This document shows positions 5,259 through 47,885 of a stretch of 64,000 nucleotides of DNA, piece after piece. Source of the stretch: Xestospongia muta. Its lineage: Eukaryota; Porifera; Demospongiae; Haplosclerida; Petrosiidae. The position numbers and the translations under genes are program-made. Under the pieces are notes generated by a model, which made no database searches, was not told the DNA's origin, and saw only the letters and a list, made by a program, of their open reading frames with translations. Location of the stretch: the NCBI GenBank assembly GCA_963693285.1, contig OY848929.1, positions 4,404,501 to 4,468,500 of the forward strand, read 5' to 3'. The first letter of the stretch is position 1, and each line of letters starts with the position of its first letter.

Positions 5259-5313
5259 ACCAAACTGCTGGACATAGATCAACTTAACTCTCAGAAAACA
5301 AATTCAAAAAAGG

Positions 5314-7301: not shown

Positions 7302-7309
7302 TATAAAAG
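7302..7309 (+). promoter_or_regulatory. TATA box of CUB gene copy 3
   Basis: TATAAAAG, 51 bp before the ATG at 7360. The flanking sequence differs from copies 1 and 2, but the octamer and spacing are kept. Confidence 0.55.
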
Positions 7310-7359
7310 AGAGAAAACTATATAGGGCTCATTCAGAAAATACGATATCACTTTTAAAA

Positions 7360-10678: not shown

Positions 10679-10754
<76 letters not shown>

Positions 10755-17117: not shown

Positions 17118-17309
17118 TTTTCATCATAGACTGGCGATGAGACAAACCCCTAGCTATGTGACACTACCATTATAATCTCATTGAGCCAACCTCATTTCAG
17201 AAAAGTGTTTGGTCCTTGACTATATGGTTATTAGTATGTGGTGTGAATTTATTAGTACACTTGGACACCTTGTGACCTATTAAAAATACCTTGTGGAACT
17301 ATTAATAAA

Positions 17310-18365
17310 TGTCCTTATGGAATTGTCCTTACTTCAGCGGTTAATTTATATGTATGGTTTATAGGACTACTTCTCTTGTATGTCCTTATTATGGAGTTGT
17401 CCTTACTTCAGTGGTTAATTTATATGTATGGTTTATAGGACTACTTCTCTTGTATGTCCTTATTATGGAATTGTCCTTACTTCAGTGGTTAATTTATATG
17501 TATGGTTTATAGGACTACTTCTCTTGTATGTCCTTATTATGGAGTTGTCCTTACTTCAGTGGTTAATTTATATGTATGGTTTATAGGACTACTTCTCTTG
17601 TATGTCCTTATTATGGAATTGTCCTTACTTCAGTGGTTAATTTATATGTATGGTTTATAGGACTACTTCTCTTGTATGTCCTTATTATGGAGTTGTCCTT
17701 ACTTCAGTGGTTAATTTATATGTATGGTTTATAGGACTACTTCAATTGTATGTCCTTATTATGGAGTTGTTCTTACTTCAGTGGTTAATTTATATGTATG
17801 GTTTATAGGACTACTTCTCTTGTATGTCCTTATTATGGAGTTGTCCTTACTTCAGTGGTTAATTTATATGTATGGTTTATAGGACTACTTCTCTTGTATG
17901 TCCTTATTATGGAGTTGTTCTTACTTCAGTGGTTAATTTATATGTATGGTTTATAGGACTACTTCTCTTGTATGTCCTTATTATGGAGTTGTCCTTACTT
18001 CAGTGGTTAATTTATATGTATGGTTTATAGGACTACTTCTCTTGTATGTCCTTATTATGGAGTTGTCCTTACTTCAGTGGTTAATTTATATGTATGGTTT
18101 ATAAGACTACTTCAATTGTATGTCCTTATTATGGAGTTGTTCTTACTTCAGTGGTTAATTTATATGTATGGTTTATAGGACTACTTCTCTTGTATGTCCT
18201 TATTATGAAGTTGTCCTTAATTCAGTGGTTAATTTATATGTATGGTTTATAGAACTACTTCTCTTGTATGTCCTAATTATGGAGTTGTTCTTAAATCAGT
18301 GATTGATTTATATGTATGGTTTATAGGACTACTTCTCTTGTATATCCTTATTATGGAGTTGTCCT
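17310..18365 (+). repeat. 74-bp tandem satellite array, about 14 copies
   Basis: The unit contains GTGGTTAATTTATATGTATG, GTTTATAGGACTACTTCTCT and TTATTATGGAGTTGTCCTTA. The period is 74 bp (for example GTGG at 17411 and 17485). Two-unit variants (GGAATT versus GGAGTT) alternate near the start, suggesting higher-order amplification. The last copies are degenerate. Confidence 0.92.
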
Positions 18366-19253: not shown

Positions 19254-20069
19254 TTATTTTGCTTGTGCTTCCAAGCTTTGCAAGTATTCTACTGTTCTTG
19301 TATTTGTTCCATACATTATGTTATGTAACTTCTCCCAGACTTTGATCTTAAAACCAGCTTTAATAAGATTTACGAGACCTTGATCATCATCTCTATCACT
19401 GAGGTGCCATATTTGTCCAACATATAGAGTGGGTTTATGATGATTTTTAAAATACTCTAGTAGAGCTTTTGAGCAGTTTGCACATGGTGAATTCTTAATC
19501 CACAAAGCTGTGATATTTTGAGGATTAGATTGGCTTTTCATAAACATCACTTCAGCATGTTGTCCTCCAGGAGTGTTAATATAGATCTGTGTAAGAAAGA
19601 AATATTTTTAAAAAATTTTAATGCTAACAGCTTATCTTATGAATTTAGTTAATAATACTTAAACACTATAGCTAAAATAGCTATTACAGTGGCTGTTTAC
19701 CTTGCCAGTGTTAGTCAGTAATAGTGTTCCAGTTTCTTCACTTGCTCTCATTGCAACATCGTATTCTCTATTATCTCCTTCATCAGTAGATTCCAGTGGT
19801 GGTTCAAATTCTGATGCGACTATATAATAGATATAGTTTTGAGAACTTGGGTACTGCAAACTGCCATTGTTTAAATCTCCTATTTCTACATCAATATTTT
19901 TCATTTTCTTTGTTCTTATGCGAACTGCTTCAATACTTGATACAACTGCTTTGTTCTTTCTTGATGTCTTCTTGCAGAGGCACACACAACAGGAACAGAT
20001 ACATAGTGCAAAAATGACAGCTGATAATACAGCTAAGGTTATCAATAGAGCAAAATATAGAGTCTCCAT
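19254..20069 (-). CDS. AID/APOBEC-like deaminase D1, membrane-anchored (class I)
   Basis: Exons 20069-19701 and 19586-19254 (114-bp phase-0 intron) give 233 residues. An N-terminal hydrophobic helix (residues ~5-32, ending in a Cys-rich SCCVCLC) is followed by basic residues, which predicts the rest of the protein in the cytosol. A linker of about 80 residues precedes the deaminase domain (from ~113). The zinc centre is H133-A-E135 and P157-C158-A-N-C161, with E135 as the expected proton shuttle. KPTLYVGQIWHLSD and DQGLVNLIKAGFKIKVW then match the strand-helix-strand that follows the PCxxC helix in AID/APOBEC proteins. It is predicted to deaminate cytosine in a nucleic acid; substrate unknown. 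The intron lies just before the zinc centre. Confidence 0.82.
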
Positions 20070-21039
20070 CTTGAGTCTAATGAAATAAGCACCTTACTAG
20101 TTCTTCTGATCTAGTAGATAGAATGAGTAAGTATTTCCTTTTTATTATCTATTCATGCTGAGCAGGTAGAACTATACTGCTTACTATAGTATACTGTTTA
20201 CTAACTTTGCTATATGAATAGTCCAATGATATTTCCCTACATGTTTATTGGATTACCTCATAGTTATACTATTAATTGCTTTGTTGGTTATATGTCATTA
20301 ATTGTATTCATTGAGTACCTTATTCATTGTTATATATACACTAGTACGTCATGAAGTGTTGATAGATTTAGGTTAACTGTGCTATTGATACTAATACATG
20401 TGCTGTCAAGTTTATCATAACTTGGTTATTTATTTGTGTGTGGTTGTTATTTTTGTGACTAGCCAATCTGGTGGTGTTGTTATAATGTATACCCATTACA
20501 TACAATTACATCATAATGAAAGCATAGATTTTGCTATACTTGCTCTTGAATATTATAATAAAATTCGTTGGGTATGAATTTTATTGACATGTTAATTGTT
20601 AAAATTCTTTAAGTAACAAACAACTGATATGAATTAAAAATGCATTTTATAGATGTCCTTCATATGTTGTTAGTTTTATATATCATAACAATAGTGTTAA
20701 TAGCAAGATAGACATGAGATTGATCGTGCACACTAAAAGATAAATCTATAAATAGTAACATACTGAAATTTAAGTCTATAAATAGTAACACACTTGTAAC
20801 AATGAGAGGAAATCCTGTCAATCAGGTTGTTATTTCTCTCTTAATGAGATTATGAATAACATATCATGGGATTCATAACTTTTAATTACACACACACACT
20901 ATTGGGTTAGTAATAATATTTCATTACTTGTGACCAATCATTCACTAATGATGCCATTAATGAGTTATATATACACTTAAGATACACAATGGACAAAAAC
21001 TATCTACATAAAGTTGCTCTTAATAAGCAAGCAGATGTT
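20070..21039. other. Intergenic DNA with a class II deaminase relic
   Basis: At about 20697-20800 the sequence resembles the class II genes: GTTAATAGCAAGATAGACATGAGAT matches the segment encoding the VYLVTN strand, next to two CTATAAATAG promoter-like copies. The rest is AT-rich without a gene. The downstream part (AATGAGAGGAAATCCTGTCA) recurs near 26282. Confidence 0.45.
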
Positions 21040-21124
21040 TGTTTATTCTTCTTGCAGCATCACATTCATTATTACTGACTTCTATTTTTATTATCAGTAA
21101 AATAGCTAAACATAGGATCTTCAT
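21040..21124 (-). pseudogene. Relic first exon of a D5-type deaminase
   Basis: Minus-strand translation from the ATG at 21124 begins MKILCLAILL and continues into EVSNNECDAA. It closely matches the signal-peptide exon of D5 (MKILCLAILLTII...VSNNGYDVV). The match fades after about 28 codons and no partner exon 2 follows before D1. Upstream sequence, including a degenerate kappaB-like palindrome at 21343-21353, is also shared with D5. Confidence 0.6.
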
Positions 21125-21604
21125 GTTGACTTTACTAGAATAAAAATAATATAATAATTTACTAGTTACATTCTACATATGAAAAACTATAGTCAAAAAT
21201 TTATATATTATACTACTATAGTGGAACAAAACACTGTTATATAATGTAATGATTACTTTTAGGAGCTTGATTAAAGGTTAGAATTCTCCCATCATAGTTT
21301 TAGTCCAGTTTGTCTCTTAATGATTACAATATAAAAACACCCGGAAAATTCCCAGATGTTTCTTGTGCAGAGTCATTGTTGATATAGCTTTAATTGTATT
21401 CATTGGAGATGACTGTTTTGTACTGACATGATACTGTTGTTTCCTTGAAATGGATTATGTTTGCTTTTGATATATTTACTGTATCTGATATTCTTGACTA
21501 GATTTTTGTACTTGATGACATCATTAATAAGTTTTGGTATCAAACTAAAAATTAGTTTAAATATTATTATTCAAACATAAAACAATTATATATTGTCGTT
21601 GAGC

Positions 21605-22465
21605 TTATCTTGCTTGTGTTTCTAATTTATACAAGTAATTTTTAGCGGTAAGATCTGGTATAGGAAACAGTTTGGCATGTAATGTTTCCCACACTCTAAT
21701 TTTAAAACCTGCTTTCATAAGATTTATGAGTCCTTGGTCATCATTTCTTTTGTTAAGTTGCCATATTTTTCCAACATATATAGTAGGTTTATGATAATGA
21801 TTAAAATATTCAAGTAGTGCCCTTGAACAATTAGCACATGGTGAGTTTTTGATCCACAGAGCTTTGATATGATCTGGATTGTTAGATCTGTCATTTATAA
21901 ACATGATTTCAGCATGTAGTCCTCCAGGAGTGTTAAGATATTCCTATATAATGAAAAGAAATCCATAACTAGATAAAATATTGCACCTAAACAGCAAACT
22001 ATGGTAGGTAATCCTCTAATAAATTAGTAGAGTTATGTTGTCATAGTTAATTGTTTGTCTAATGTAAGAGATACAAACTTAATTGGAGATTACTATTATT
22101 TGCATTTATTTGTTTTTGTTTACCTTGTCAGTATTGGTCCATAAAAGCGTTCCTTGCCTATTGTGAGCTTTCGTTGCAACATCACACTCTTTCTTAGCTC
22201 TGCCATCAGTTGAATCTAATAGTGGTTCAAAGTCTGTTGTAAAAACTGATGAATCTGAACTACTGTCATCTAAATCAGTGATTTTAATGGCCCATGGTTT
22301 GACTTCCTCTGTGTTGATAGAATGGCCTGTTTCAATATCAGGTCGTACTTTGTTTTTATTGGATGTATTCTGCAGGTTGAGACACCAACAAGCACAACAG
22401 CAGACACATATAACAATAATAATAACTATTACAATTAGTAAAGTGACTAAATATACGGTCTCCAT
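21605..22465 (-). CDS. AID/APOBEC-like deaminase D2, membrane-anchored (class I)
   Basis: Exons 22465-22124 and 21943-21605 (180-bp phase-0 intron) give 226 residues. METVYLVTLLIVIVIIIVIC is a strong transmembrane helix and runs into a CCCACWC cluster that could be palmitoylated. The acidic, Ser-rich linker contains DDSSSDSS. Exon 2 starts EYLNTPGG and carries the zinc centre H124-A-E126 and P149-C150-A-N-C153. KPTIYVGKIWQL and DQGLINLMKAGFKIRVW follow. First member of the duplicated D2-D3-D4 block; its closest relative in architecture is D6, which has lost this helix. Confidence 0.85.
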
Positions 22466-23414
22466 CTCATGTCTATTGGAATAAATATAATAGTAATAGA
22501 CTAATAGGTTAAGTGTTTATAATGAGGATTACATGAAGGAATTTATGACAACTATTCTACTATTATTAGTATATATTACATTATAGTACATAACACTATT
22601 GCTTACTTTCAATATTTTCTTTGTCTCAGTAAATATTCAAAACTTTCCACTATAGAGTATATTGTCACTGAGTGACTGTGTTATTTGTACTCTTCAGTTG
22701 TTGCTGACTGTGTAATTAGATTGCTCAATATATGATGCTTGCTTTTTTAAGTGATTACATAACTCAATATAGTTGAGGTTGCAATTATAGTTATTAGTTG
22801 ATATCTGTATCAGCTAATAACTAAAATATTTATAATTCATTGATAATTTTTGAAATTCATTGATCATTTGTACTAGTCATTAGTTCCTGGGTATGGAGGA
22901 AAATAACCACAATAATACTAGGTATAGACAAAACACTACTATGTTTTGTAAACTTTTTTGTGTAGTATTGTTATCACTTAGAATTTTTTCTAACTCATTT
23001 CTAAGTAGCTTTTTGTTCTAGTATTTATTAGGTTATACATATGTTTATGAACTGTTCAGGTATCTGTATAAATAACTTATTTTGTTGTGACATATATTTG
23101 TTAATATTAGATTTCTTTCTCTTAAGTTATTGTTTGTCTAAGTAAGTTTTCTTAAGTTATTTATGTCACAGTATCTTAAATATATGTCTAGTAAAGGTGT
23201 TGTATTTGGTGTGTAAGTTTGATGTTAACTTGATTGTGGTTATGTTCCTAAAATCTGATTAGTTATTTACACATATAACTAAGTGCTGAGTCAACCAGAT
23301 TCCTTATCACACTGGAGAGAAGACCTTTATATTTGATTTATGTTTGCCAGACTTTGTCCCTCCCATTTTCTTCAAAAAATGTAACAAGGATATGAATTGT
23401 TTAATTTTATTAAA
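22466..23414. other. Intergenic, D2 upstream region
   Basis: No gene seen. It carries a stem-loop sequence at 22789-22822 that recurs near 25965 and 28887. Much of it is repeated at 25660-26150 and 28560-29460. Confidence 0.55.
22789..22822. repeat. Conserved stem-loop upstream of class I genes
   Basis: The arms AGTTATTAGTTGATA and TATCAGCTAATAACT are complementary with one mismatch around a 4-base loop. Close copies lie at about 25965-25998 and 28887-28920. Two of the three sit 325-350 bp upstream of a class I start codon (D2, D6). Confidence 0.6.
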
Positions 23415-23981
23415 CTAATAACGCATATTATAGATATATTTCAAATGTCGTTTAGTTTTTGTACTACAACAATATAATAGAAAAACCATAAATCTCCATT
23501 CAACTAACGTAAAGCCATCATTCACTAACTCTCGTAGTGCTCTACAGTTATCATTTCCAAAATCATAAATCCTTCCAACACTGATAGTTGGTTTGACTCG
23601 ACAATTTTGAAAGAATTGTTTTAATTCCCTTGCACACTGTGTACATGGTGAACTCTTTATCCAAATATGAGTGACTTTAGATCTGTCTTTATTTCTATAA
23701 TCGTCCATAAACGCTTGCTCAGCATGAACAAAGCGGTGATTTTTGTAAATCTCTCTGGTGTTAGTAACAAGATAGACATGAAATCCATCAAGTCTAGCAG
23801 AGATAGCTGTACACACTTGTGCCAACTTTAGTGATAGCCAAATTATCCGCTTGAATACATACTGTATCACCACTGTCAATAATGTTATGAGGATAAACAC
23901 TACTAACACTAGAGAAATAAATTGGATAACATGTATACCGTACATGTATATGATGTACTACTTACTGGTAATATCATCCAT
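23415..23981 (-). CDS. AID/APOBEC-like deaminase D3, membrane-anchored (class II)
   Basis: Proposed exons are a 16-nt exon 23981-23966 (MDDIT) and 23908-23415, joined in phase 1 across a 57-bp intron (GTAAGT...CTCTAG), giving 169 residues. The tiny exon is supported by D7, which keeps the same codons, splice sites and spacing, and by a kappaB-like site exactly 174 bp upstream in both. A hydrophobic helix follows (residues ~6-24, LVVFILITLLTVVIQYVF), then KR, so the domain faces the cytosol. Zinc centre H67-A-E69 and P93-C94-T-Q-C97; then KPTISVGRIYDF and CRALRELVNDGFTLVEW. The C-terminal tail is short and basic. An alternative unspliced start at 23945 would give 176 residues. Confidence 0.8.
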
Positions 23982-24154
23982 TGTGTTAGCTCACTTGAAT
24001 GTTTCCTATTCTGTTATGATCCAATCAGATTTCTTGGTAGTTATTTTCTTGGAGTGATTGTTTACACTGTGTGTATTGCAAATTTCCAATATCTATTTTT
24101 AAAACATGTAGGTCCCAAGAATTGAAATCTATAAATAGTAACACACTAATTAAA

Positions 24155-24165
24155 GGGACCTTCCC
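24155..24165 (-). promoter_or_regulatory. kappaB-like palindrome upstream of D3
   Basis: GGGACCTTCCC within the longer inverted repeat AAAGGGACCTTCCCTTT, 174 bp before the D3 start. It fits the relaxed NF-kappaB consensus GGGRNNYYCC. A CTATAAATAG box lies between it and the gene. Confidence 0.4.
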
Positions 24166-24578
24166 TTTAGAAGACTTCCATGAATCAGTTCAGTAATTCT
24201 TTCTCATTGAAATAATAGCATTCATTATTTCAGAAAATTAGATCACTGGTCCATTAATAATATTCATATATATACTCAGGGAAAAGACAAGTTTCTGGGA
24301 GTCTTTTAGTGACATTGCATGATAACTGGAATGATTACTATCATTATTAGTATTTCTTCAAACACTTAGACAGCTGCAATATAGCTCTTAAAGTTGCGCA
24401 TTTTTGTGTTGACATATTCGTGTAATAAATTCTATTATCAACAAACTACAATTTATTAATATATAACAGATGGGATAGTCACTATTTGTAGCCAAAACTA
24501 ACTCAATAATCACACTAAATAGTACTTCTTTATTTACTACTAGTAATTGTTAACTCCTTTATTACTACTGTTCACTAC
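24166..24578. other. Intergenic between D3 promoter and D4
   Basis: No gene seen. Sequence is shared with 30223-30640, 32224-32639 and 34171-34600. Confidence 0.6.
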
Positions 24579-25257
24579 TTAGAGTTCAGCAAGGTACTTC
24601 TTGGTCTGTTGAATGTCACGGTTCTTAGGAGTATTCCAGACTTCTAGGGTGAACCCTTCCATTATCATATTTCTTAAACCTTGAAAATTATCGCTATCAT
24701 TTCCGTCCCATATTTTTCCAATGTAAACAGTAGGTTTAGTGTATCTCATAGAAAAATGATTGATAAGACGTCTTGAACAGTCAGCACATGGAGAATTCTT
24801 GATCCAAATACTGTGAATATCACTAGCAGATGTTCGTCTAATGAATACTCTTTCAGCATGTTCATAAGGCTCACTCCAATAAATATGACCAGTGTTTGTA
24901 CGGAGAAGAGTACCTTCAGTTGTAAAAGCCATTTTAGCTGCTTTTTCTAATGTGCATTTAGAACCAGTTGGAAGATCACGTAGCCTTGTTTCTTGTGTAT
25001 ATCTAGATAGAAAGAAGCGCACATCTTAAAATGATATTATATAATACACAGTTAGTATTATATATATGACTATTGTACCATAGATAAATCTTTACTCTAT
25101 ATTATCTATGATTGTACATAGATGTCTTTCTTTACCTTGGACCAATGTTGTTAGGTTCCTTGCATAACTGGTAACAATAAACTATAAGAAGGATTACTAG
25201 GAATGGAAGAACTAGCACAAATAAAGATTGAGCATCATCTGGAGTATTGTGATCCAT
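24579..25257 (-). CDS. AID/APOBEC-like deaminase D4, membrane-anchored (class III)
   Basis: Exons 25257-25136 and 25002-24579 (133-bp phase-2 intron) give 181 residues. An acidic, presumably extracytoplasmic N-terminus (MDHNTPDDAQ) leads into one hydrophobic helix (SLFVLVLPFLVILLIVY), then CYQLCKEPNN. Exon 2 opens with a single RYTQETRL linker unit, then STCSLE-type and GTLLRTNTGHIYWSE segments. The zinc centre is H89-A-E91 and P112-C113-A-D-C116. KPTVYIGKIWDGND and QGLRNMIMEGFTLEVW follow. The intron position differs from class I and class II, so the anchor exon has a separate origin. Confidence 0.85.
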
Positions 25258-26156
25258 GTTAAGTTCACTATCAGGCAATCCTTTTAGATTGAAAGATAGT
25301 AAAAGGAGAAGAAATATAACTTTACCTCCTTTAAACTCTTGTTAGCGTACTTTGTGTACTAGTTGGTATTGTGGTATTGTGGTTATGTGCTGGGAAGCTT
25401 AGTTATAAGATAACAATGACTGGAACCTCCCCTTTTTTGTTCATGATAATTCTTAGTAATGTGTGCCAACTCTCACTGAAATTATGGGTATATTTACTCT
25501 CTAATTCCTTGAAGTATGTAGTGTTAATAAATATTGACAAGTTCATTTATAAAGATATTTTATATTCATTTAATTCTTAATTTTCACTGCATGAACACTG
25601 ATGTCTCTTATATGAAATACTCAATGTAAATATTTTTACATATACAACTATAGGAATAAAAATGTAATAGTAATAGACTAAATGGTTAAGTGTTTATAAT
25701 GATGGTTGCATGAAGAAATTATGACAACTATTCCACTATTGTTAGTATATATTACATTATAATACATAACATTATTGCTTACTTTCAATATTTTCTTGGT
25801 CTCAGTAAATATTCAAAAACTTTCCACTATAGAGTATATTGCCACTGACTTTGTTATTTATACTCTTCAGTTATTGCTGACTGTGTAATTATTATATTGG
25901 TCAATATATTATGCTTGCTTTTTAAAGTGATAATATACCTAAATACATTTGAGGTTGCAATTATAATTATTAGTTGATATCTGTATCGGCTAATAACTAA
26001 AATATTTATAATTCATTGATAATTCGTACTAGTCATTAATTCCTGGTTGTGGAGGAGGGTAACCACAATAACATTAGCTATAGACAAAGCCTTATAACTT
26101 TATGTAAACGTTTTTGTTTATTAATACTATTGCACTAGTCATCAGTTTTAGTTTTA
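25258..26156. other. Intergenic, fused D4 and relic class I promoters
   Basis: Up to about 25640 this is the D4 upstream region, also found before D8 and D9. At about 25660 the sequence switches to the class I upstream region (matches 22480-22990) with no class I gene attached. This is a duplication breakpoint. Confidence 0.6.
25422..25431 (-). promoter_or_regulatory. kappaB-like site upstream of D4
   Basis: GGGAGGTTCC on the minus strand, 165 bp before the D4 start codon. It fits GGGRNNYYCC and is conserved before D8 and D9 at 166 and 165 bp. Confidence 0.38.
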
Positions 26157-26280
26157 CTTTAGATCTGTTTTGTCTTTATAAAAACCATCAATACTTGCTT
26201 AGCATGTAAAAATTGTTTTTGTAGACAAATTTAGTGTTAGTAACAAGATAGATGTGAGATTGATAATGCACACTAATGAC
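26157..26280 (-). pseudogene. Degraded class II deaminase fragment
   Basis: The plus-strand text AGATCTGTTTTGTCTTTATAAAAACCATC ... TGCTTAGCATG ... TTAGTGTTAGTAACAAGATAG (shown here in pieces) aligns with the D3 coding region around the H-A-E motif and the VYLVTN strand. It carries small deletions and frame breaks, and the PCxxC part is missing. Confidence 0.55.
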
Positions 26281-26506
26281 AATGAGAGGAAATCCTGTCA
26301 ATCAGATTATTAATTCTCTCTCAATGAGATTATGAATAATATGTCACAGCATTCATAATTTTGATTACATCCACACAAACACACACAATTGGCGTAGTGA
26401 TAATATTCATTACTTGTGACCAACTATAATAATTGATGTTATTTATGAGTTAGAATATGTAGTGAAGAAAAACTAAATACATAAAAGGCATTCTTAATAA
26501 TTATAT
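26281..26506. other. Intergenic, repeat of the 20.8-kb region
   Basis: No gene. The AATGAGAGGAAATCCTGTCA segment and what follows match about 20800-20990. Confidence 0.5.
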
Positions 26507-27253
26507 TTAGAATTCTTTATGTTGTTTCTTTCTTGCCTTTTTTTCTAATTTACTCAAGTAATTTGTAGTGGTGGGATTTGATCCATACATCATTTTGTGT
26601 AATTTGTCCCATACTTCGATTTTAAAACCTGCTTTCATTAGATTTATGAGTCCTTGATCATCATTTTTGTCATAGAGGTGCCATATTCGTCCAATATAAA
26701 TGATGGGTTTATTATGATTTTTAAAATATTTAAGAAGTGCTCTTGAACAATCAGCACATGGTGAGTTCTTGATCCACAGAGCTCTGATATGATCTGGATT
26801 GTTAGATCTATCATTTATAAACATGATTTCAGCATGTGGTCCTCCAGGAGTGTTAAGATATTCCTGTAAAAATAAACAAAGTAATACTGAATTCATTTAT
26901 AAATATTGTACTAGTGGTTTTATAGGAATTTGCTAAATATTTTAAAGCTATAGTAGATACATACCAATTGTTTGAGTGTATGTCAGGCTATTTTTAGGTC
27001 CATCAGGAAGTGCATACTTTGTTGTGTATTAAACTGATCCCCACTTCCTAAACCCAAAACATTAATTATATGAAACAAAGTATGACTTCCTGCCAGACCT
27101 ATAGATACTACTACCTCGTTTTTAGTTTACTTTGCCGGTGTTGGTCAGCAAAAGTGTTCCATAGGAGTTGAAAGCTCTTTCTACAACGTCATATCCATTA
27201 TTACTGACTCCTATTATTATTGTCAGTAAAATAGCTAAACATAGGATCTTCAT
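26507..27253 (-). CDS. AID/APOBEC-like deaminase D5, signal peptide instead of anchor (class I)
   Basis: Exons 27253-27131 and 26863-26507 (267-bp phase-0 intron) give 159 residues. Exon 1 is short: MKILCLAILLTIIIGVSNNG looks like a cleavable signal peptide, followed directly by the first deaminase strands (GTLLLTNTGK). Exon 2 is class I (EYLNTPGG) with H51-A-E53 and P76-C77-A-D-C80, then KPIIYIGRIWHL and DQGLINLMKAGFKIEVW. The C-terminus is Lys-rich. The Cys-rich helix and linker of D1/D2 are absent, so this paralogue is predicted to be secreted or luminal. A foldback sequence lies in its intron. Confidence 0.82.
26995..27108. mobile_element. Small foldback element in the D5 intron
   Basis: TAGGTCCATCAGGAAGTGCA at the left and TGACTTCCTGCCAGACCTAT at the right are inverted copies with a few mismatches, and the match extends inward through ATACTTTGTT. 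The spacer is about 50 bp. No equivalent is seen in the D1, D2 or D6 introns, so insertion after duplication is likely. Confidence 0.6.
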
Positions 27254-27452
27254 GTTGAGTTTGCTGGAATAAAAAGTAACAAGATAATTAAGACTAGTTA
27301 GAAAAAAATTTATATATATTATACTATTATTCTGGGACAAAATACTGTTTAAATAATATAATGGTTACTTTTAGGAGCTTGATTAAATTTAGAAATTTCC
27401 CCTCACAGCTTTAGTCCAGTTTGTTTCTTAATAATTACAATATAAAAACACC

Positions 27453-27463
27453 CGGGAAATTCC
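27453..27463 (-). promoter_or_regulatory. kappaB palindrome upstream of D5
   Basis: GGGAAATTCCC, a perfect palindrome that fits the canonical NF-kappaB consensus, 200 bp before the D5 start. The palindrome extends outward with one mismatch (AAAACACC ... GGTGTTTT). A degenerate copy (GGAAAATTCCC) lies at 21343-21353 before the relic exon. Confidence 0.45.
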
Positions 27464-27709
27464 CAGGTGTTTTTTGCTGTGTGTAATAGTTGATATAGCT
27501 TTAATTATATTCATTGGAGATGACTGGTTTGTACTGACATGATACTGTTGTTTCCTTGAAATGGATTATGTTTGCTTATGATACATTTACTGTATCTGAT
27601 ATTCTTGACTATATTATTGTAGTTGATGACATTGTCAATGACTTTTGGTATTGGGCTATAAATTAGTTTAAATATTATTATTATTCAAACATGAAACAAT
27701 TATATATTA

Positions 27710-28540
27710 TTATTGAGCTTCTCTTGATTGTGTTTCTAATTTATGTAAGTGATCTTCAGTGGTGGGATTTGATCCATACATCATGTTATGTAATATTTCC
27801 CATACTTTGATCTTAAAACCTGCTTTCATAAGATTTATGAGTCCTCGGTTATTTTTGTCATCAAAGCCCCATATTTTTCCGACATAAATGGTTGGTTTGT
27901 GATGATTTTCAAAATATTCAATTAGTTCTCTTGAACAATCAGCACATGGTGAGTTCTTGATCCACAGAGTTGTTATATGATCTGGATTGTTAGATATGTC
28001 ATTTATAAACATGATTTCAGCATGTGGTCCTCTAGGAATGTTGATGTATTCCTGTATAATGAAAAGAAATACACTGTCTTATGCTTATGGCTCTAGATTA
28101 ATAGAATGAAACAATACAAATGTTCATGTGTTGACTCCAAGTCTTGTACTCACTAGTAAGCTATAGTAGGTAAATTATCTATACTTTAGTAAGTTAGTAT
28201 GTAACTAGTGAAAATGATTATGTGTCATAATTAATTGTTAGGTTACTGTGAGGGGTACAAGCTTAATATCACCATCACATGTATTTAATTTTTTGTTTAC
28301 CTTGTCAGTATCGGTCCATAAAAGAGTTCCATTCCCTTTGTGAGCTCTCATTGCAACTTCATGCTCTTTCTCAGCTCTACCATTAGTTGAATCTAGTGGC
28401 AGCTTTATAGTAGTTATATAATGTAAAGAAACTGAACTACTGTCTTCTAAATCAGTGATTTCAATAGCACATTGTAATGGTTTGACTTTCTCTGTGTTGA
28501 TGGTATATAAATTAACAATTTGTAAAATATCTGTCTCCAT
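27710..28540 (-). CDS. AID/APOBEC-like deaminase D6, anchor lost (class I)
   Basis: Exons 28540-28301 and 28051-27710 (249-bp phase-0 intron) give 193 residues. The start METDILQIVNLYTINTEKVK aligns with D2 on both sides of the transmembrane helix, which is missing. About 35 residues of helix and Cys-rich segment have been deleted, leaving a protein predicted to be soluble and cytosolic or nuclear. The zinc centre is intact: H90-A-E92 and P115-C116-A-D-C119. KPTIYVGKIWGF and RGLINLMKAGFKIKVW follow. Exon 2 begins EYINIPRG, with a P-R change in the otherwise constant TPGG. Confidence 0.82.
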
Positions 28541-29467
28541 TTGTGTCTATTGGAATAGAAATTTATTAGTAATAGACTTACAGGTCAAGTATTTATAATG
28601 AATATTACACAAATGAGTTTATGACAACTATCCTACTATCGTTAGCATAGACGGCATTATATTTATATAGCATTATTGTGAGATATTATAATACACACTG
28701 TTACTTACTTTAAGTATTTTCTTGGCTTCAGTAAGAATTCACAATTCTCTATTATCGAGTGCATTGTCACTGACTATGTTATCTATACTCTTCAGTTGTT
28801 GCTGACTGTGTAATTAGATTGCTCAATATATGATGCTTGCTTTTTTAAGTGATTACATAACTCAATATAGTTGAGGTTGCAATTATAGTTATTAGTTGAT
28901 ATCTGTATCAGCTAATAACTAAAATATTTATAATTCATTGATAATTCATATTAGTCATTAATTCCTGGTTATGGAGGAGGATAACCACAATAGACAAAAC
29001 CTTATAGCTTTTTATAAACTTTTTTGTTTCATAATTGTATCACTTAGAATCTCATTTCTAAGTAACTTTCTGTTCTGATAGATTGATTTATTAGGTTATG
29101 AACTGTTCTAGTATCTTTATAAATAACTTACTTTGTTGTGACATATATTTGTTAATATTAGATTTTTTTCTCTTAAGTTATTGTTTGTCTAAGTAAGTTT
29201 TCTTGAGTTATTTATGTCACAGTATCTTAAATATATGTCTAGTAAATGTGTTGTATTTGGTGTGTGAGTTTGATGTTAACTTGATTGTGGTTATATTCCT
29301 AAAATCTGATTAGTTATCTCTACACACGTAACTAAGTGCTGAGTCAACCAGACTCCATATCACACTGGAGAGAAGACCTTTATATTTGATTTATGTTTGC
29401 CAGAATTTGTCCCTCCCACTTTCTTCAAAAAATGTAACAAGGATATGAATTGTTTAATTTTATTAAA
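28541..29467. other. Intergenic, D6 upstream region
   Basis: Copy of 22466-23414 with small deletions; stem-loop copy at 28887-28920. No gene seen. Confidence 0.55.
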
Positions 29468-30038
29468 CTAATAACGCATATTATAGATATATTTCAAATG
29501 TCGTTTAGTTTTTGTACTACGACAATATAATAGAAAAACCATAAATCTCCATTCAACTAACGTAAAGCCATCATTCACTAACTCTCGTAGTGCTCTACAG
29601 TTATCATTTCCAAAATCATAAATCCTTCCAACACTGATAGTTGGTTTGACTCGACAATTTTGAAAGAATTGTTTTAATTCCCTTGCACACTGTGTACACG
29701 GTGAACTCTTTATCCAAATATGAGTGACTTTAGATCTGTCTTTATTTCTATAATCGTCCATAAATGCTTGCTCAGCATGAACAAACTGCCGACTTTTGTA
29801 GATCTCTCTGGTGTTAGTAACAAGATGGACACGAAATCCATCAAGTCTAGCAGAGATAGCTGTACACACTAGTGTCCATTTTAGCAATATCCACTTGACT
29901 GTCTTGACTAAATACCATATCATCACCACTGTCAATGTTATAATGACGATAAACACTACTAACACTAGAGAAATAAATTGGACAAACATGTATACTGTAC
30001 ATGTATATGATGTACTACTTACTGCTAATATCATCCAT
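29468..30038 (-). CDS. AID/APOBEC-like deaminase D7, membrane-anchored (class II)
   Basis: Proposed exons 30038-30023 (16 nt, MDDIS) and 29964-29468, joined in phase 1 across a 58-bp intron, give 170 residues. From the first deaminase strand onward it is almost identical to D3 (one C to R change near the end). The hydrophobic N-terminal helix and its flank have changed more (VVFIVIITLTVVMIWYLV). Zinc centre H68-A-E70 and P94-C95-T-Q-C98. The contrast between a near-identical catalytic part and a diverged anchor suggests conversion or selection on the anchor. An unspliced alternative from 30034 would give 188 residues. Confidence 0.8.
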
Positions 30039-30211
30039 TGTGTTAGCTCACTTGTATGTTTCCTTTCTGATATGATCCAATCAGATTTCTTGGTATTTTT
30101 TTCTTGAAGAGGTTGTTTACATTATGTTTATACTGTGTACATTGCAAATTCTATTTTTAAACTAGTAGGTCCCAAGAATTGAAATCTATAAATAGTAACA
30201 CACTAATTAAA

Positions 30212-30222
30212 GGGACCTTCCC
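30212..30222 (-). promoter_or_regulatory. kappaB-like palindrome upstream of D7
   Basis: GGGACCTTCCC, 174 bp before the D7 start, the same distance as in D3. Confidence 0.4.
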
Positions 30223-30640
30223 TTTAGAAGAATTCCATGTATTAGTTCAGTAATTCTTTATCATTAAAATAACAATACTACTCATTTTTTCAGAAAATTA
30301 CATCACTAGTCCATTAATAATATTCATATATATACTTAGGGAAAAGACAAGTTTCTGGGAGTCTTTTTGTGACATTACATGATAACTGGAATGATTTCTA
30401 TCGCTAGTAGCATTTCTTTAAACACTTAAACAGCTGCAATATAGCACTTAAAGTTGCGCCTTTTTATGTTGAGATATTTCATGTAATAAACTTTGTTATC
30501 AACAAAATACAATTGATTAATGTACAACAGATGGGATACTAACTATTTGTAGCCAAAACTAACTCAATAATCACACTAAATAGTACTTCTTTATTTACTA
30601 CTAGTAATTGTTAACTCCTTTTATTACTACTGTTCACTAC
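30223..30640. other. Intergenic between D7 promoter and D8
   Basis: No gene seen. Shared with the regions 3' of D4 and D9. Confidence 0.6.
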
Positions 30641-31387
30641 TTAGAGTTCATCAAGGTACTCCCTGGTCTGTTGAATGTCACGGTTCTTAGGAGTACCCCA
30701 GACATCTAGGGTGAACCCTTTCATTATCATATTTTTTAAACCTTGACGATTATCGCTATTACCTCCGTCCCATATCTTTCCAATATAAATAGTAGGTTTA
30801 GTGGATCTCATAGAAAAATGATTGATAAGACGTCTTGAACAGTCAGCACATGGAGAGTTCTTGATCCAAATACTATGAATATTGCTAGCAGATGTTCGTC
30901 TAATGAATACTTTCTCAGCATGTTCGTAAGACTCACTCCAATAAATATGACCAGTGTTAATATGAAGAAGAGTACCTTCAGTTGTAAAAGCCATTTCAGC
31001 TGCTTTTTCTAGTGAGCAGGTAGAACCAGTTGGAAGATCACGTGACCTTGTTTCTTGCACATATCTGGACCTTATTTCTTGTGTATATCTGGGCCATATT
31101 TCTTGTGTATACCTGGGCCTTATTTCTTGTGTATAACTGGATAGAGAGAAGTACACATCTTAAAACGATATTATATAATACACAGTTAGTATTATATATG
31201 ACTATTGTACCATAGATAAATCTTTACTCTATTGTCTATGGTTGTACATAGATGTCTTTCTTTACCTTGGACCAATGTTGTTAGGTTCCTTGCATAACTG
31301 GTAACAAATAACTATAAAAAGGATTACTGGGAATAGAAAAACTAGCACATATAAAAATTGAGCGTCATCTGGAATTTTGTGATCCAT
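30641..31387 (-). CDS. AID/APOBEC-like deaminase D8, membrane-anchored, expanded linker (class III)
   Basis: Exons 31387-31266 and 31136-30641 (129-bp phase-2 intron) give 205 residues. The acidic N-terminus MDHKIPDDAQ, a hydrophobic helix (FLYVLVFLFPVILFIVI) and CYQLCKEPNN are as in D4. The linker holds four tandem 8-residue units (SYTQEIRP, RYTQEIWP, RYTQEIRS, RYVQETRS), a 24-bp coding minisatellite. Zinc centre H113-A-E115 and P136-C137-A-D-C140, then KPTIYIGKIWDGGN and QGLKNMIMKGFTLDVW. Extra units add 24 residues relative to D4 without breaking the frame. Confidence 0.85.
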
Positions 31388-31552
31388 ATTAAGTTCACTA
31401 TCAGGCAATCCTTTTGGAATGAAAGATGAGTACAAGGAGAAGAAATATAACTTTACCTCCTTTAAACTCTTGTTAGCATACTCTGTGTGCTTGTCGATAA
31501 TGTGGTATTGTGGTATTGTGCTGGGAAGTTTAGTTATAAGATAACAATGACT

Positions 31553-31562
31553 GGAACCTCCC
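31553..31562 (-). promoter_or_regulatory. kappaB-like site upstream of D8
   Basis: GGGAGGTTCC on the minus strand, 166 bp before the D8 start. Confidence 0.38.
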
Positions 31563-32212
31563 CTTTTTTGTTCATGATAATTCTTAGTAATGTGTGCCAA
31601 CTCTCACTCAAATTATGAGTATATTTACTCTCTAATTCCTTGAAGTATGTAGTGTTAATAAATATTGACAAGTTCATTTGTAAAGATATTTTATATTCGT
31701 TTAATTCTTAATTTTCACTGCATGAACACTGATGTCTCTTTTATGAAATACTCAATGTAAATATCTTCACATATACAACTATTAAAAAGGGCAGGCATAT
31801 ATAAGTATAATAATTTATTGTAATTATATACAATAGTGGAAACTATTAGCATTTGTTTTAGTTTGTTGAATGGATAAATTTTGAAACTTTTATTTTTATT
31901 ACAGCACACTCACAATTATTTTGTTAAAAATGTGAAGATCTGTTTTACTAAGGCTTGATTTATTAATTACATGTACATTGCCATTTTAAAACTTGTCCAT
32001 CATATAATTCAACAATAAAAGTGTCTTCTTTATCATATCTTTATTAATTGTTTAGGTCATTCTTCAATATTTGTGTTTGATATATTTAACTAATATTCTT
32101 ATCAAAATAGTTTACATTGTATTTGTATACATACTGTGTGTATTGTAATATCTATTTTTAAACTATTAGGTCCCAAGAATTGAAATCTATAAATAGTAAC
32201 ACATTAATTAAA

Positions 32213-32223
32213 GGGACCTTCCC
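32213..32223 (-). promoter_or_regulatory. Orphan class II kappaB-like palindrome
   Basis: GGGACCTTCCC in the same context as before D3 and D7, but no MDDI exon or class II coding sequence follows. The gene appears to have been deleted and its promoter left behind. Confidence 0.4.
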
Positions 32224-32639
32224 TTTAGAAGAATTTCATGTATTAGTTCAGTAATTCTTTCCCTTTAAAATAATAGCATTCATTATTTCAGAAAATTAGA
32301 TCACTAGTCCATTAATAATATTCATATATATACTTAGGGAAAAGACAAGTTTCTGAGAGTCTTTTAATAATGTATGCTTAGTAACTGGAATGATTACTAT
32401 TGATAATATAACATTTCTCCAAAAACTTAAACAGCTGCAATGTTTTTTTTAAATTGCGCCTTTTTATGTTTAGATATTTCATGTTATAAACTCTATTATC
32501 AACAAAACTCAGTTTATTAATATACAAAAAATGGGATAATCATTATTTGTAGCCAAAACTAACTCAATAATCACACTAAATAGTACTTCTTTATTTACTA
32601 CTAGTAATTGTTAACTCCTTTATTATTATTGTTCACTAC

Positions 32640-33342
32640 TTAGAGTTCAGCAAGGTACTGCCTGGTTTGTTGAATATGACGGTTCCTTGGAGTATCCCAG
32701 ACTCGTAGGGTAAACCCTTCCAATCTCATATTTCTTAAACCTTGACGATTATATCTATTATCACCTTCCCATATCTTTCCAATATAAGTAGTAGGTTTAG
32801 TACGTCTCATAGAAAAATGATTGATGAGAAATTTTGAACAGTCACCACATGGAGAGTTCTTGATCCAAATACTAGTAATATCATTAGGAGATATAGGTGT
32901 TGTATGAATCATTACTCTTTCAGCATGTTCACAAGGCTCACTCCAATAAATATGACCAGTGTTAATACGAAGAAGAGTACCTTCAGTTGTAAAAGCCATT
33001 TCAGCTGCTTTTTCTAGTGAGCAGGTAGAACCAGTTGGAAGATCGCGTGACCTTGTTTCTTGCACATATCTGGGCCATATTTCTTGTGTATATCTGGATA
33101 GAGAGAAGCGCACATCTTAAAATGATATTATATAATACACAGTTAGTATTATATTATGACTATTGTACCATAGATAAATCTTTACTCTATTATCTATGGT
33201 TGTACATAAATGTCCTTCTTTACCTTAGACCATTGTTGTTAGGTTCCTGCCTTAAGAAACAATAAACTATAAGAAGGATTACTAGCAATAGAAAAACTAG
33301 CACAAATAAAAATTGAGCATCATCTGGAGTTTTTTGATTCAT
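32640..33342 (-). CDS. AID/APOBEC-like deaminase D9, membrane-anchored (class III)
   Basis: Exons 33342-33224 and 33093-32640 (130-bp phase-2 intron) give 190 residues. N-terminus MNQKTPDDAQ, then the helix FLFVLVFLLLVILLIVY. Two linker units (RYTQEIWP, RYVQETRS). Zinc centre H96-A-E98 and P121-C122-G-D-C125; the spacing between the two motifs is two residues longer than in D4, from the insertion TTPISPND. KPTTYIGKIWEGDN and QGLRNMRLEGFTLRVW follow. It comes from a further ~2-kb duplication of the D8 region. Confidence 0.85.
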
Positions 33343-33506
33343 ATTAAGTTCACTATCAGGCAATCCTTTTGGAATGAAAGATAGTAGAAGGAGAAGAAAT
33401 ATAACTTTGCCTCCTTTAAACTCTTGTTAGCGTACTCTGTGTGCTTGTCGATAATGTGGTATTGTGGTATTGTGCTGGGAAGTTTAGTTACAAGATAACA
33501 ATGACT

Positions 33507-33516
33507 GGAACCTCCC
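33507..33516 (-). promoter_or_regulatory. kappaB-like site upstream of D9
   Basis: GGGAGGTTCC on the minus strand, 165 bp before the D9 start. Confidence 0.38.
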
Positions 33517-34159
33517 CTTTTTTGTTCATGATAATTCTTAGTATTGTGTGCCAACTCTCACTGAAATTATGAGTATATTTAGTCTATAACTCCTTGAAGT
33601 ATGTAGTGTTAATAAATATTGACAAGTTCATTTGTAAAGATATTTTATATTCATTTAATTCTTAATTTTCACTGCATGAACACTGATGTCTCTTTTATGA
33701 AATACTCAATATAGAATATCTTTACATATACAACTATTAAAAAGGGCAGGCATATATAAGTATAGTAATTTATTGTAATTGTATACAATAGCGGAAACTA
33801 TTAGCATTTGTTTTAGTCTGTTGAATGGGTTAATTTTGAAACTTTTATTTTATTTCAGCACACTCACAATTATTCTGTTAAAAATGTGAAGATCTGTTTT
33901 ACCAAGGCTTGATTTATTTATTACATGTACATTGCCATTTTTAAAACTTGTCCTCATATAATTCAACAATAAAAGTGTTTTCTTTATCATGTCTTTATTA
34001 ATTCTTTGCATCATTCTTCAATACCTGTGTTTAATAATTTTAACTAATATTTCTATCAAGATAGTTTACATTGTATACATACTGTGTGTATTGTAATATC
34101 TATTTTAAACTATTAGGTCCTAAGAATTGAAATCTATAAATAGTAACACACTAATTAAA

Positions 34160-34170
34160 GGGACCTTCCC
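34160..34170 (-). promoter_or_regulatory. Second orphan class II kappaB-like palindrome
   Basis: GGGACCTTCCC in the class II promoter context without a class II gene downstream. Confidence 0.38.
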
Positions 34171-34266
34171 TTTAGAAGAATTCATGTATTAGTTCAGTAA
34201 TTCGTTCCCTTTAAAATAATAGCATTCATTATTTCAGAAAATTAGATCACTAGTCCATTAATAATA

Positions 34267-34269
<3 letters not shown>

Positions 34270-34307
<38 letters not shown>
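34270..34307. repeat. (TA)n microsatellite
   Basis: About 19 uninterrupted TA units. The homologous sites near 24270, 30330 and 32330 have only a few units. Confidence 0.9.
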
Positions 34308-34633
34308 TCAGGGAAAAGAGAAGTTTCTAGGAGTCTTTTAGTAATATATGTGCATGGTAACTGGAATGGTTTCTATTGCTAGTAGCATTTTTAAACAGTT
34401 AAACAGCTGCAATATAGCACTTAAAGTTGCGCCTTTTATGTTGAGATATTTCATGTAATGAACTTATTATCAACAAAACACAATTGATTAATATATAACA
34501 GATGGGATACTAACTATTTGTAGCCAAAACTAACTCAATAATTACACTAAATAGTACTTCTTTATTTACTACTAGTAATTGTTAACTCCTTTATTACTTT
34601 TGATTTTTATTTATAATAAAAATACTTTCTTAC

Positions 34634-34737
34634 TTTTGATTATTTTGGTAGTCTAACCAAAAAAGAGCTAGTAACATTATTATTGGTAACAGTATACATA
34701 CTAGCTTCATAAGATCTTCCAATGGAATAGAGTCCAT
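34634..34737 (-). CDS. Orphan class III first exon
   Basis: A 104-nt open exon starts MDSIPLEDLMKLVCILLP and ends at a GTAAGA donor in phase 2. It is nearly identical in sequence and length to exon 1 of D10. No matching exon 2 lies before D9. Its phase would allow splicing to D9 exon 2 (acceptor at 33094), making it an alternative first exon; otherwise it is a leftover of the duplication that also produced the fragment at 35180-35365. Confidence 0.5.
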
Positions 34738-35179
34738 AATGAGTTCTCTTGTATAAGAAGAGGATAGGAATAACACACCCCTTGAATTCTTATCATACCA
34801 GGTATATGTGGTTACTATTCAATAGCACACCTGGTAATAAATAGTTTCAGTATAATATTCTTATAATACTAACCTTCGTTTTCTTAAAATTGGATGTTGT
34901 GATAACAAATGATAACACTGTATAAACAGGAGTACTGGGAAAGTAGCATCATAATTAATGGATGAGATTATTTTTAATACTAGTAGACCACTATATTTAT
35001 ACATATTTATTTGATGTGTGTATATATTATATTAGTAGCTTCACTTGTGTAAGTTAAGTATTAATTTTGTTGTGTTATATCAACTAAGTATTGAAATTAT
35101 TGTCCAAATTTAAATATTGAAATTGCTGTCCAAATTCAAAATTCTAATTTTTAATCCTTTGTTGAACAATTTTTTATGT
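34738..35179. other. Intergenic, duplicate of 36162-36607
   Basis: No gene seen. Nearly identical to the sequence between D10 and D11. Confidence 0.6.
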
Positions 35180-35365
35180 TTAACTAACATCACTTGACAA
35201 TTTATCAAGATAGTCTTGAGTGTGTTCAACGTTTTTGTTTTTTGGAGTATCCCAAACTTTTAACACGAACCCTTCAATTATTAAATTTCTTAGACCTTGA
35301 CAATTATCGCTATCATCTCCGTCCCATATCTTTCCAATATAAATAGTAATTTTAGAAGGAGCTGT
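35180..35365 (-). pseudogene. Truncated deaminase exon 2 (C-terminal part only)
   Basis: Minus-strand translation reads ITIYIGKIWDGDDSDNCQGL, then NLIIEGFVLKVWDTPKNKN and ends LDKLSSDVS. It matches the last third of D11, with no H-A-E or PCxxC. With 34634-35179 it forms a partial copy of the 36058-36790 block. Confidence 0.75.
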
Positions 35366-35382
35366 TAACTAGTTACCATAAA

Positions 35383-36161
35383 TCAATTTTTATGTTTTAT
35401 AAATTTAACTAATACTCTTAACAATTTATCAAGATAGTCTTGAGTGTGTTCAATGTTTTTGTTTCTTGGAGTATCCCAAACTTTTAAAACGAACCCTTCA
35501 ATTATTAAATTTCTTAAACCTTGACGATTATTACTATCATCTCCGTCCCATATCTTTCCGATATAAATAGTAGGTTTCATATCTGTCATAGAAAAATGAT
35601 TAATAAGTAGACTTGAACAGTCAGCACATGGAGAACTCTTTATCCAAATACTACGAATATTGCTAGCAGGTATACTTGTAGTACGAACAAATATTTTCTC
35701 AGCATGTTGTTGACGACGTTCACTCCAATAAATATGACCAGTGTTTATATGGAGAAGAGTACCTTCAGTTGTAAACGCCATTTCAGCTGCTTCTTCTAAT
35801 GAGCAGGTAGAATCAGTTGAAAGATCACGATATCGTCCTGATTCTGGGAGAGATATTGGCTCTGATCTCTTATAGGAGATATGCTGACCTCTCCTAGAAG
35901 AGTCAGGTACATATATGGGCTCTGATGCTCTAGGAGAAGGGTGTTGGTCTCTCACAGGGGAGTCTGGTGTCTTATTAGGAGGGTGCTTATATCCCCTAGA
36001 AAAAGATTGATGCATATTATGGGTGGAAGATATTTAATGTATTTATCACTTTCTTACTTTTGAGTATCTTGGTAGTCTAACCAAAAAAGAGCTAGTAACA
36101 TTATTATTGGTAACAGTATACATACTAGCTTCATAAGATCTTCCAATGGAATAGTGTCCAT
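35383..36161 (-). CDS. AID/APOBEC-like deaminase D10, membrane-anchored, long linker (class III)
   Basis: Exons 36161-36058 and 35995-35383 (62-bp phase-2 intron) give 238 residues, the longest member. MDTIPLEDLM is followed by the helix VCILLPIIMLLALFWL. A basic, Pro/Ser-rich linker of about 55 residues has two loose repeats (ASEPIYVPDSSR and RSEPISLPESGR). STCSLEEAAEMAF and GHIYWSE precede the zinc centre H132-A-E134 and P157-C158-A-D-C161. KPTIYIGKIWDGDD and QGLRNLIIEGFVLKVW follow. The C-terminus differs from D11 after LDKLL. No kappaB-like site is seen at the position used by D4, D8 and D9. Confidence 0.84.
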
Positions 36162-36607
36162 AATGAGTTCTCTTGTAGGATAGGAATAACACACCCCTTG
36201 AATTCTTACTATACCAGGTATTTGTGGTTACTATTCAATAGCACACCTGGTAATAAATATTCATAGTTCAGTATAATATTCTTATAATACTAACCTTCGT
36301 TTTGTTAAAATTAGATGTTGTGATAACAAATGATAACACTGTATAAACAGGAGTACTGGGAAAGTAGCATCATAATTAATGGATGAGATTATTTTTAATA
36401 CTAGTAGACCACTAAATATATACATATTTATTTGATGTGTGTATATATTATATTAGTAGCTTCACTTGTGTAAGTTAAGTATTAATTTTGTTGTGTTATA
36501 TCAATTAAGTATTGAAATTATTGTCCAAATTTAAAATTTAATTATTGAAATTGGTGTCCAAATTTAAAGTTTTCATTTTTAATCCTTTGTTGAACAATTT
36601 TTTATGT
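36162..36607. other. Intergenic between D10 and D11
   Basis: No gene seen; duplicated at 34738-35179. Confidence 0.6.
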
Positions 36608-37280
36608 TTAACTAACATCACTTAACAATTTATCAAGATAGTCTCGGGTTTGTTCAATGTTTTTGTTTCTTGGAGTATCCCAAACTTTTAACACGAACCC
36701 TTCAATTATTAAATTTCTTAGACCTTGACGATTATCGCTATCATCTCCGTCCAATATCTTTCCAATATAAATAGTAGGTTTCATATCTGTCATAGAGAAA
36801 TGATCAATAAGAAGACTCGAACAATCAGCACTTGGAGAGTTCTTTATCCAAATACTACTAATATCACTAGCAGATATACTTGTACTATTAACAAATACTC
36901 CCTCAGCATGTTGTTGATGACGTTCACTCCAATAAATATGACCAGTGTTAATACGAAGAAGAGCAATGTCTTCTGTAAATGCCATTATAGCTGCTTCTTC
37001 TAGTGAGCAAGTAGAACCACTTGGAAATTCACTGTATTCTTGTTCTTCATCTTCATCTTTATATGACTCTGATGTTCTATCAAAATGATCCCTTCTTCTC
37101 ATATGTGGTCTATAGAATAGTAGTATTAAATAGTACTGGCTTTTGGAATAGGTCTGTGTCTCCTTACCTTGGTTTGTGTCTATGTTCAGTTCCTTGACAT
37201 AACCAACAAAACAGACATATTACAAATATTAGTAATAGAAACAGTATCACTATTATATCTACTGGTAGTTCATCATTCAT
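36608..37280 (-). CDS. AID/APOBEC-like deaminase D11 with a mutated zinc site (class III)
   Basis: Exons 37280-37168 and 37109-36608 (58-bp phase-2 intron) give 204 residues. The anchor exon (MNDELPVDIIVILFLLLIFV) differs from all others. The linker is acidic (KDEDEEQEYSEF) instead of basic. H105-A-E107 is kept, but the second motif reads P130-S131-A-D-C134: the first zinc-binding Cys is Ser (AGT where paralogues have TGT). A second change turns KIWDGDD into KILDGDD. The frame is fully open, so the protein is probably made but catalytically weak or dead. It lies at the edge of the cluster. Confidence 0.82.
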
Positions 37281-47746: not shown

Positions 47747-47885
47747 TTATTGTGCCCATATAAGGATCATTGTTAGCGTATCTACAAAGATGAATAAACT
47801 AAAACAAAAATAAACATATCATCATTTTGCTTGCAAAGAAAGTGGGCCGGGCTAGTTTTAATTGAAATTTGCAACTACTGCAGAG
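47747..47885. promoter_or_regulatory. Shared promoter region, sulfatase / perforin-2
   Basis: 139 bp between divergent start codons. No clear TATA box. It contains AAGTGGGCCGGGC, a rare GC-rich patch. Confidence 0.45.

Follow-up and report, generated by a model that had tools for sequence, protein, structure and literature searches.

A tandem array of eleven AID/APOBEC-like deaminase genes, most with predicted membrane anchors, in a probable demosponge

The 64-kb window (the whole stretch of DNA that was analysed) contains eleven predicted two-exon genes for AID/APOBEC-like deaminases, all on the minus strand and together spanning positions 19254-37280. The two-exon models are open, the deaminase fold is found in both proteins that were modelled and the zinc site is intact in ten of the eleven; the genes fall into three subfamilies (A1 to A4, B1 and B2, C1 to C5) and blocks of the array have been duplicated. 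Our favoured reading, with a probability of about 60%, is a tandem array of the sponge group SNAD4 with nine anchored deaminases facing the cytosol, one protein with a signal peptide-like start and one soluble protein; the deaminases would act at membranes as mutators of viruses or retroelements.

Deaminase domain, zinc site and fold

HAE combined with PCxxC occurs in ten frames of the window, all on the minus strand between positions 19473 and 35706 and all inside the cluster; the remainder of the 64 kb has none. The initial annotation had ascribed HAE and SPCxxC to all eleven genes: this is correct for HAE (11/11) but not for SPCxxC (10/11). The odd one out is C5 (36608-37280), which keeps HAE but reads SPSADC, with the first zinc-binding cysteine replaced by serine. 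A public protein that is near-identical to C5 (P0009) has a tyrosine at this position, and the frames of both stay open. C5, with a predicted anchor but one zinc ligand short, may have a regulatory role or bind without catalysis, or else be a decaying gene or early pseudogene. The distance between HAE and PC is 20-23 residues (27 in human AID), and the 21-24 residues given originally hold for the ten zinc-motif genes when counted from HAE to CxxC. WIK[NS]SP and KP are present in all eleven genes. The QGLxNLxxxGFxxxVW stretch of the initial annotation is kept in most A and C genes (27710 reads RGL) and is looser in group B, RALRELVNDGFTLVEW.

All eleven genes score above the Pfam cut-offs of PF18767 (56-109 bits) and PF18774 (46-72 bits), and the sequence profile of the window proteins is nearer to AID/APOBEC-like deaminases than to other deaminases. 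AlphaFold models were available for two of the eleven proteins, C2 (exon 2) and B1 (unspliced frame P0015); the domain of group A is split over two exons. Both models have an alpha-beta deaminase fold with alpha-4 between beta-4 and beta-5, and for each model all 50 listed PDB matches are AID/APOBEC proteins. The structure prediction that had been proposed as a check therefore gives a deaminase fold, with AID/APOBEC proteins as nearest solved structures, and membership of the AID/APOBEC-like superfamily, as initially claimed, is near certain from the sequence profiles and the two predicted structures.

Judged by sequence, the array proteins are not AID proper, because the tryptophan of SWSPC is missing in 11/11 (all read WIK[NS]SP) and because their top model, PF18767, has no listed match to human AID. 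SWSPC, with a tryptophan before SPC, is the classical motif of vertebrate-type AID/APOBEC proteins. With vertebrate APOBEC3G, APOBEC1 and AID the proteins share the fold, the zinc site, an aromatic residue at the start of loop 7 and the alpha-4 pattern; they differ in the absent tryptophan, in the shorter distance between HAE and PC and in the predicted N-terminal anchor.

Gene structure and predicted membrane anchors

The eleven consecutive minus-strand genes of the initial annotation were all recovered. Exon models were predicted from sequence: in each of the eleven genes a first exon joined at GT-AG sites completes the frame, with no internal stop, and position 37280 is the start codon in the predicted exon 1 of the last gene, C5.

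The four genes of group A (at 19254, 21605, 26507 and 27710) are interrupted within the domain by a phase-0 intron, close to the turn that joins strands 1 and 2. Exon 2 of A1 (19254-19586) encodes the deaminase core from the second strand on, including HAE and SPCANC, and its exon 1 (19701-20069) starts with METLY and continues with a predicted transmembrane helix, a cysteine cluster, a basic linker and the start of the domain. A2 has the core in exon 2 (21605-21943) and a predicted transmembrane helix, cysteine cluster and linker in exon 1 (22124-22465). The cores of A3 (26507-26863) and A4 (27710-28051) are preceded by different first exons: that of A3 (27131-27253) encodes a signal peptide-like start, MKILCLAILLTIIIGVSNNG, and the protein is predicted to be secreted, while that of A4 (28301-28540) resembles exon 1 of A2 with the hydrophobic part lost, and the protein is predicted to be soluble.

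Both group B genes have a 16-base exon 1 or are possibly unspliced with an alternative start. Exon 2 of B1 (23415-23908) encodes a predicted transmembrane helix that runs into alpha-1 and the full deaminase domain, and exon 1 (23966-23981) encodes MDDIT, the alternative being an unspliced gene starting with MYGIHV. B2 likewise has a predicted transmembrane helix and the deaminase domain in exon 2 (29468-29964) and MDDIS in exon 1 (30023-30038), with the same possibility of an unspliced start.

In group C the entire domain lies within exon 2, at 24579-25002 (C1), 30641-31136 (C2, the exon modelled with AlphaFold), 32640-33093 (C3), 35383-35995 (C4, with a long N-terminal linker) and 36608-37109 (C5, with SPSADC and with KIL in loop 7, a probable pseudoenzyme). 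The first exons of C1 (25136-25257), C2 (31266-31387), C4 (36058-36161) and C5 (37168-37280) encode an acidic leader and a predicted transmembrane helix, and that of C3 (33224-33342) a leader and a predicted transmembrane helix.

Anchors were called from hydropathy, as the mean over 19 residues, and from charge. By these measures nine of the eleven proteins are anchor-like: a leader of 5-11 residues with a charge of -1 to -3 is followed by a 19-residue stretch with a mean hydropathy of 2.6-3.6 and then by 20 residues with a charge of 0 to +5. One protein is signal peptide-like (A3, with a shorter hydrophobic start and a mean of 1.87) and one is neither (A4). As a control, 6 of 238 open ATG frames outside the array in the window reach the threshold of 2.5. 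The anchors of the B genes lie mostly in exon 2, and in the B1 model the anchor continues into alpha-1 as a single unbroken helix (residues 2-53, or 14-53 within the spliced model). The helix is terminated by a cysteine cluster in A1 and A2 (CICSCCVCLC and CVCCCACWC, respectively), a likely site of palmitoylation.

The positive-inside rule is well established for membrane proteins. Because the leader is acidic and the C-terminal flank neutral to basic, it predicts that the nine proteins are membrane-anchored, not secreted, with an outward N-terminus and a cytosolic deaminase. For C2, C3, C4 and the homologue from Amphimedon queenslandica (P0040) the charge after the hydrophobic segment is weak and the rule indecisive. 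Hydrophobic starts also occur outside this assembly: P0040 has one (mean hydropathy 2.37, followed by FCCVCVC) and so has P0043, a protein of another assembly (weaker, 1.92); their strength varies.

Alternatively, the hydrophobic starts could be signal peptides or type II anchors, with the deaminase secreted or facing outwards and acting on parasites or on extracellular or endosomal nucleic acid. SNADs are described as secreted in PMC8201067 and PMC11004436, the start of A3 is signal peptide-like, a leftover copy of an A3-like exon is present at 21020-21124 and the start of P0043 is about as weak as that of A3 (1.92 versus 1.87). However, nine of the eleven stretches are stronger than that of A3 (2.6-3.6 versus 1.87), with an acidic N-terminal and a neutral to basic C-terminal flank, and in the B1 model no break separates anchor and domain; we consider this explanation unlikely, even if it is the strongest of the competing ones.

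Duplication, divergence and constraint

Blocks of 0.7-2.6 kb are repeated at 82-94% identity within the array, indicating that it grew by block duplication. The process has left remnants that go beyond the genes listed initially, all on the minus strand: a truncated twelfth copy (35180-35368) that covers just the C-terminal half of a deaminase, together with two first exons left behind. One of these (34634-34737) is an orphan copy of exon 1 of C4 and lies within a 94% duplicate (34624-35348) of 36048-36776; the other (21020-21124) resembles exon 1 of A3, has an open frame that ends with no splice donor and lies mostly within an 82% duplicate (21047-21965) of 27176-28073. When a phylogenetic tree is constructed, group B (support 99/100) and group C (100/100) are recovered, and the A-type rows are unresolved. 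Block duplications and tree both support the lineage-specific tandem expansion that had been suggested.

The ratio of nonsynonymous to synonymous substitution rates (dN/dS) of the domain is 0.28-0.84 in all 17 within-group pairs, which indicates that the genes are constrained; positive selection is not shown by these 17 averages. Across all 21 aligned rows, variability is greatest in the loops that follow alpha-2 and precede HAE and in the loop and helix of the C-terminus. C1 and C2 are 91% identical in coding exon 2, 95% in the intron and 89-90% in the flanks, and in view of the flanks we make no claim from this pair. B1 and B2 are 97% identical in the catalytic part and 96% in intron plus exon 1, but only 79% in the anchor part (23801-23908 versus the copy at 29.8-30.0 kb); the core may have undergone gene conversion, or the anchor may have changed fast.

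The remnants could also mean that the whole family is decaying and has little function: one zinc ligand is lost, one copy is truncated, two exons are left over, and four family proteins on a contig of a related sponge (P0012, P0014, P0022 and P0027) are truncated or out of frame. We think this highly improbable, as all eleven full genes have kept open frames and splice sites, dN/dS of the domain is below 1 in every one of the 17 pairs and the related contig also carries longer family frames (P0003, P0006, P0018, P0023 and P0024).

Relatives in sponges and probable assignment to SNAD4

The best named homologue is LOC109580384 of Amphimedon queenslandica (P0040), 59% identical to exon 2 of A3. 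An exon elsewhere in the genome, CGCSYAFAAVGALEG (region L015), is silicatein-like with a serine at the active site; of six regions with cathepsin-like loci, four have the ordinary cysteine and two do not match the pattern, and of the further regions L015 has the serine and L016 the cysteine. These two features make a demosponge other than A. queenslandica the most likely host, and the sponge host that the initial annotation considered probable agrees with them.

In the assembly (158 Mb in 28 contigs), domain matches above the cut-offs of three Pfam profiles are found only at this locus. PF18767 matches at 12 places here and at two more places below the cut-off (E-values of 0.5 and 0.9); the search scores the best candidates only, so that distant copies could escape. 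Ten listed family proteins (P0003, P0006, P0012, P0014, P0018, P0022, P0023, P0024, P0027 and P0035) are encoded on a 2,305,611-base contig, presumed to be a single one, and at least four of them are the truncated or out-of-frame proteins named above. The tree places P0003 together with C3 (80/80) and P0006 with C4 and C5 (81/92), so a related sponge appears to share the cluster. Among viral contigs, 15 pattern matches included no relative, and neither did 24 pattern matches in bacterial and archaeal genomes, at the sensitivity of that search.

Pfam names are a poor guide to the clade of these proteins. The top model for all eleven genes is PF18767, which is labelled "AID", and P0040 reaches 112 bits on it. 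Human AID scores best on APOBEC_N, NAD1 and APOBEC2 (219-223 bits), reaches 149 bits on the local PF18750.7 ("SNAD4") and is not listed for PF18767 at E-values up to 10, with filters that drop most matches above 0.1. The window genes have 26.8-45.8 bits on PF18750.7, C5 being just under the cut-off of 27.0. In the precomputed annotation PF18750.9 is assigned to 14 of 14 family proteins checked; the sponge fragments P0012-P0014 carry it, yet the local PF18750.7 scores them below its cut-off. The most economical explanation is a swap of names between PF18767 and PF18750 in the local copy (PF18767.7 and PF18750.7) that was later corrected. Assignment of the clade by Pfam label was rejected, given that human AID, unlisted for PF18767, scores strongly on "SNAD4"; a further reason is that P0012 and P0014 match APOBEC3 best and P0024 gives a tie. 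Assignment by tree was rejected as well: the branch of human AID is 5.5 changes per column long and the A-type rows are unresolved. The "AID" label is misleading, and this concerns anyone annotating sponge genes as activation-induced deaminase.

According to passages in PMC8201067 and PMC11004436, which attribute SNAD4 to Krishnan et al. 2018, SNADs possess a signal peptide and SNAD4 has been found in sponges; PMC11004436 gives sponges as its only source. The array probably belongs to this group: it shares with SNAD4 the probable sponge host, the AID/APOBEC-like domain and a hydrophobic N-terminus; the PF18750.9 annotation concerns the 14 family proteins mentioned above. It differs in that nine of the eleven proteins are anchor-like with a predicted cytosolic domain, one is soluble and only one signal peptide-like, and in that eleven genes stand in tandem, one lacking a zinc ligand. 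An AID/APOBEC-like family near the base of animals, as initially inferred, is therefore present but is not new, as SNAD4 had been reported from sponges before (PMC8201067, PMC11004436). The predicted membrane-anchored members would be new relative to SNAD4 as known to us; a literature search, in part directed at such proteins, found no paper on membrane-anchored AID/APOBEC-like proteins recognisable by its title or the start of its abstract, with Krishnan et al. 2018 outside its coverage. Of the related systems, A. queenslandica P0040 has the same succession of hydrophobic segment (somewhat weaker), cysteine cluster and deaminase, but is the only protein named for Amphimedon among 30 matches listed, whereas the window species has eleven genes in three subfamilies. 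SNAD1 of fish is of the same superfamily and has a signal peptide, as A3 appears to have, but is a fish group, and the word "transmembrane" is absent from the main text of PMC11004436.

Possible function

Characterised relatives deaminate cytosine on single-stranded DNA or RNA, and how cells protect their own DNA from AID/APOBEC mutators is a key question. To our knowledge, the AID/APOBEC enzymes with well-studied biology are soluble. An antiviral mutator function, in line with the immune mutator or editor role suggested initially, is likely for the array by analogy to the characterised relatives. The anchored enzymes would act as cytosine deaminases on single-stranded viral or retroelement DNA or RNA at membranes; the anchor would concentrate them where viruses copy or bud, tethering would keep the mutator out of the nucleus, and defence may have driven the expansion. 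A more tentative proposal, which we put at a little less than even odds, is that early animals had membrane-tethered mutators: an anchor helix that leads into the domain directly (B) or via a linker (A, C) would hold the deaminase at the cytosolic face, exposing viral genomes at membranes and sparing the nuclear genome, and replacement or loss of the first exon would have produced tethered, secreted and soluble forms in one array. If true, membrane tethering would be a different answer to the protection of self-DNA, found near the base of animals, and much of the sponge group would be mislabelled as "secreted". The eleven genes combine predicted tethered, secreted, soluble and zinc-ligand-less forms in one place, which makes the question directly testable.

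Several points weigh against the favoured reading of anchored antiviral mutators. The sponge group is described as secreted in PMC8201067 and PMC11004436. The TM-scores of the Foldseek matches are modest (0.41-0.57 by query length), in the profile search the PDB entries named AID rank no higher than 45th and 46th (E-values of 0.72 and 0.84) and the SWSPC tryptophan is missing throughout. The first exons are predictions from the sequence, and the B genes may be unspliced with another start. The charge of the C-terminal flank is weak in C2 and C3 (+1) and C4 (0), the 20 residues that follow the hydrophobic segment of P0040 include no basic one, and the hydropathies of both P0040 (2.37) and P0043 (1.92) are below the 2.5 of the window control. 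The dN/dS averages show constraint, and loop 7, which reads the target in APOBECs, is not among the most variable parts of the 21 rows. Finally, the antiviral action is proposed by analogy only.

Instead, the proteins could edit RNA or serve as enzymes in some non-immune pathway that happens to have expanded in this lineage. The analogy just mentioned is the one link to infection or retroelements, and in the alignment loop 7 (NRQGL) is like that of APOBEC1, an RNA editor. Block duplication, a paralogue short of one zinc ligand and first exons that differ between genes give the family a conflict-driven look, which is suggestive at most; we regard this alternative as improbable, more so than secretion but less so than decay.

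Neighbouring genes

On the plus strand, repeated exons (one scanned exon is a CUB domain) together with NIDO and sushi-domain exons occupy 845-12637, and a tandem DNA repeat of about 74 bases with a recurring, near-identical 55-residue open frame lies at 17256-18252. The next plus-strand gene beyond the array (37833-41933) has a NINPFTP motif at 38227-38412 and a further segment at 41640-41933; we take it, from its appearance, to be a Wee1-type kinase, and Pfam gives a kinase match below the cut-off only. It is followed, also on the plus strand, by a death-domain exon (43864-44148; E-value 1e-4, 22.7 bits at a cut-off of 22.6) and, 10 kb from the array, by a 774-codon frame (47862-50186) with a MACPF/perforin domain (E-value 1.2e-22) and hydrophobic stretches that are seen by eye close to both ends. 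A near-identical duplicated gene is located on the minus strand at 59471-60648 and 62691-63868, and its first copy matches glycosyltransferase family 92.

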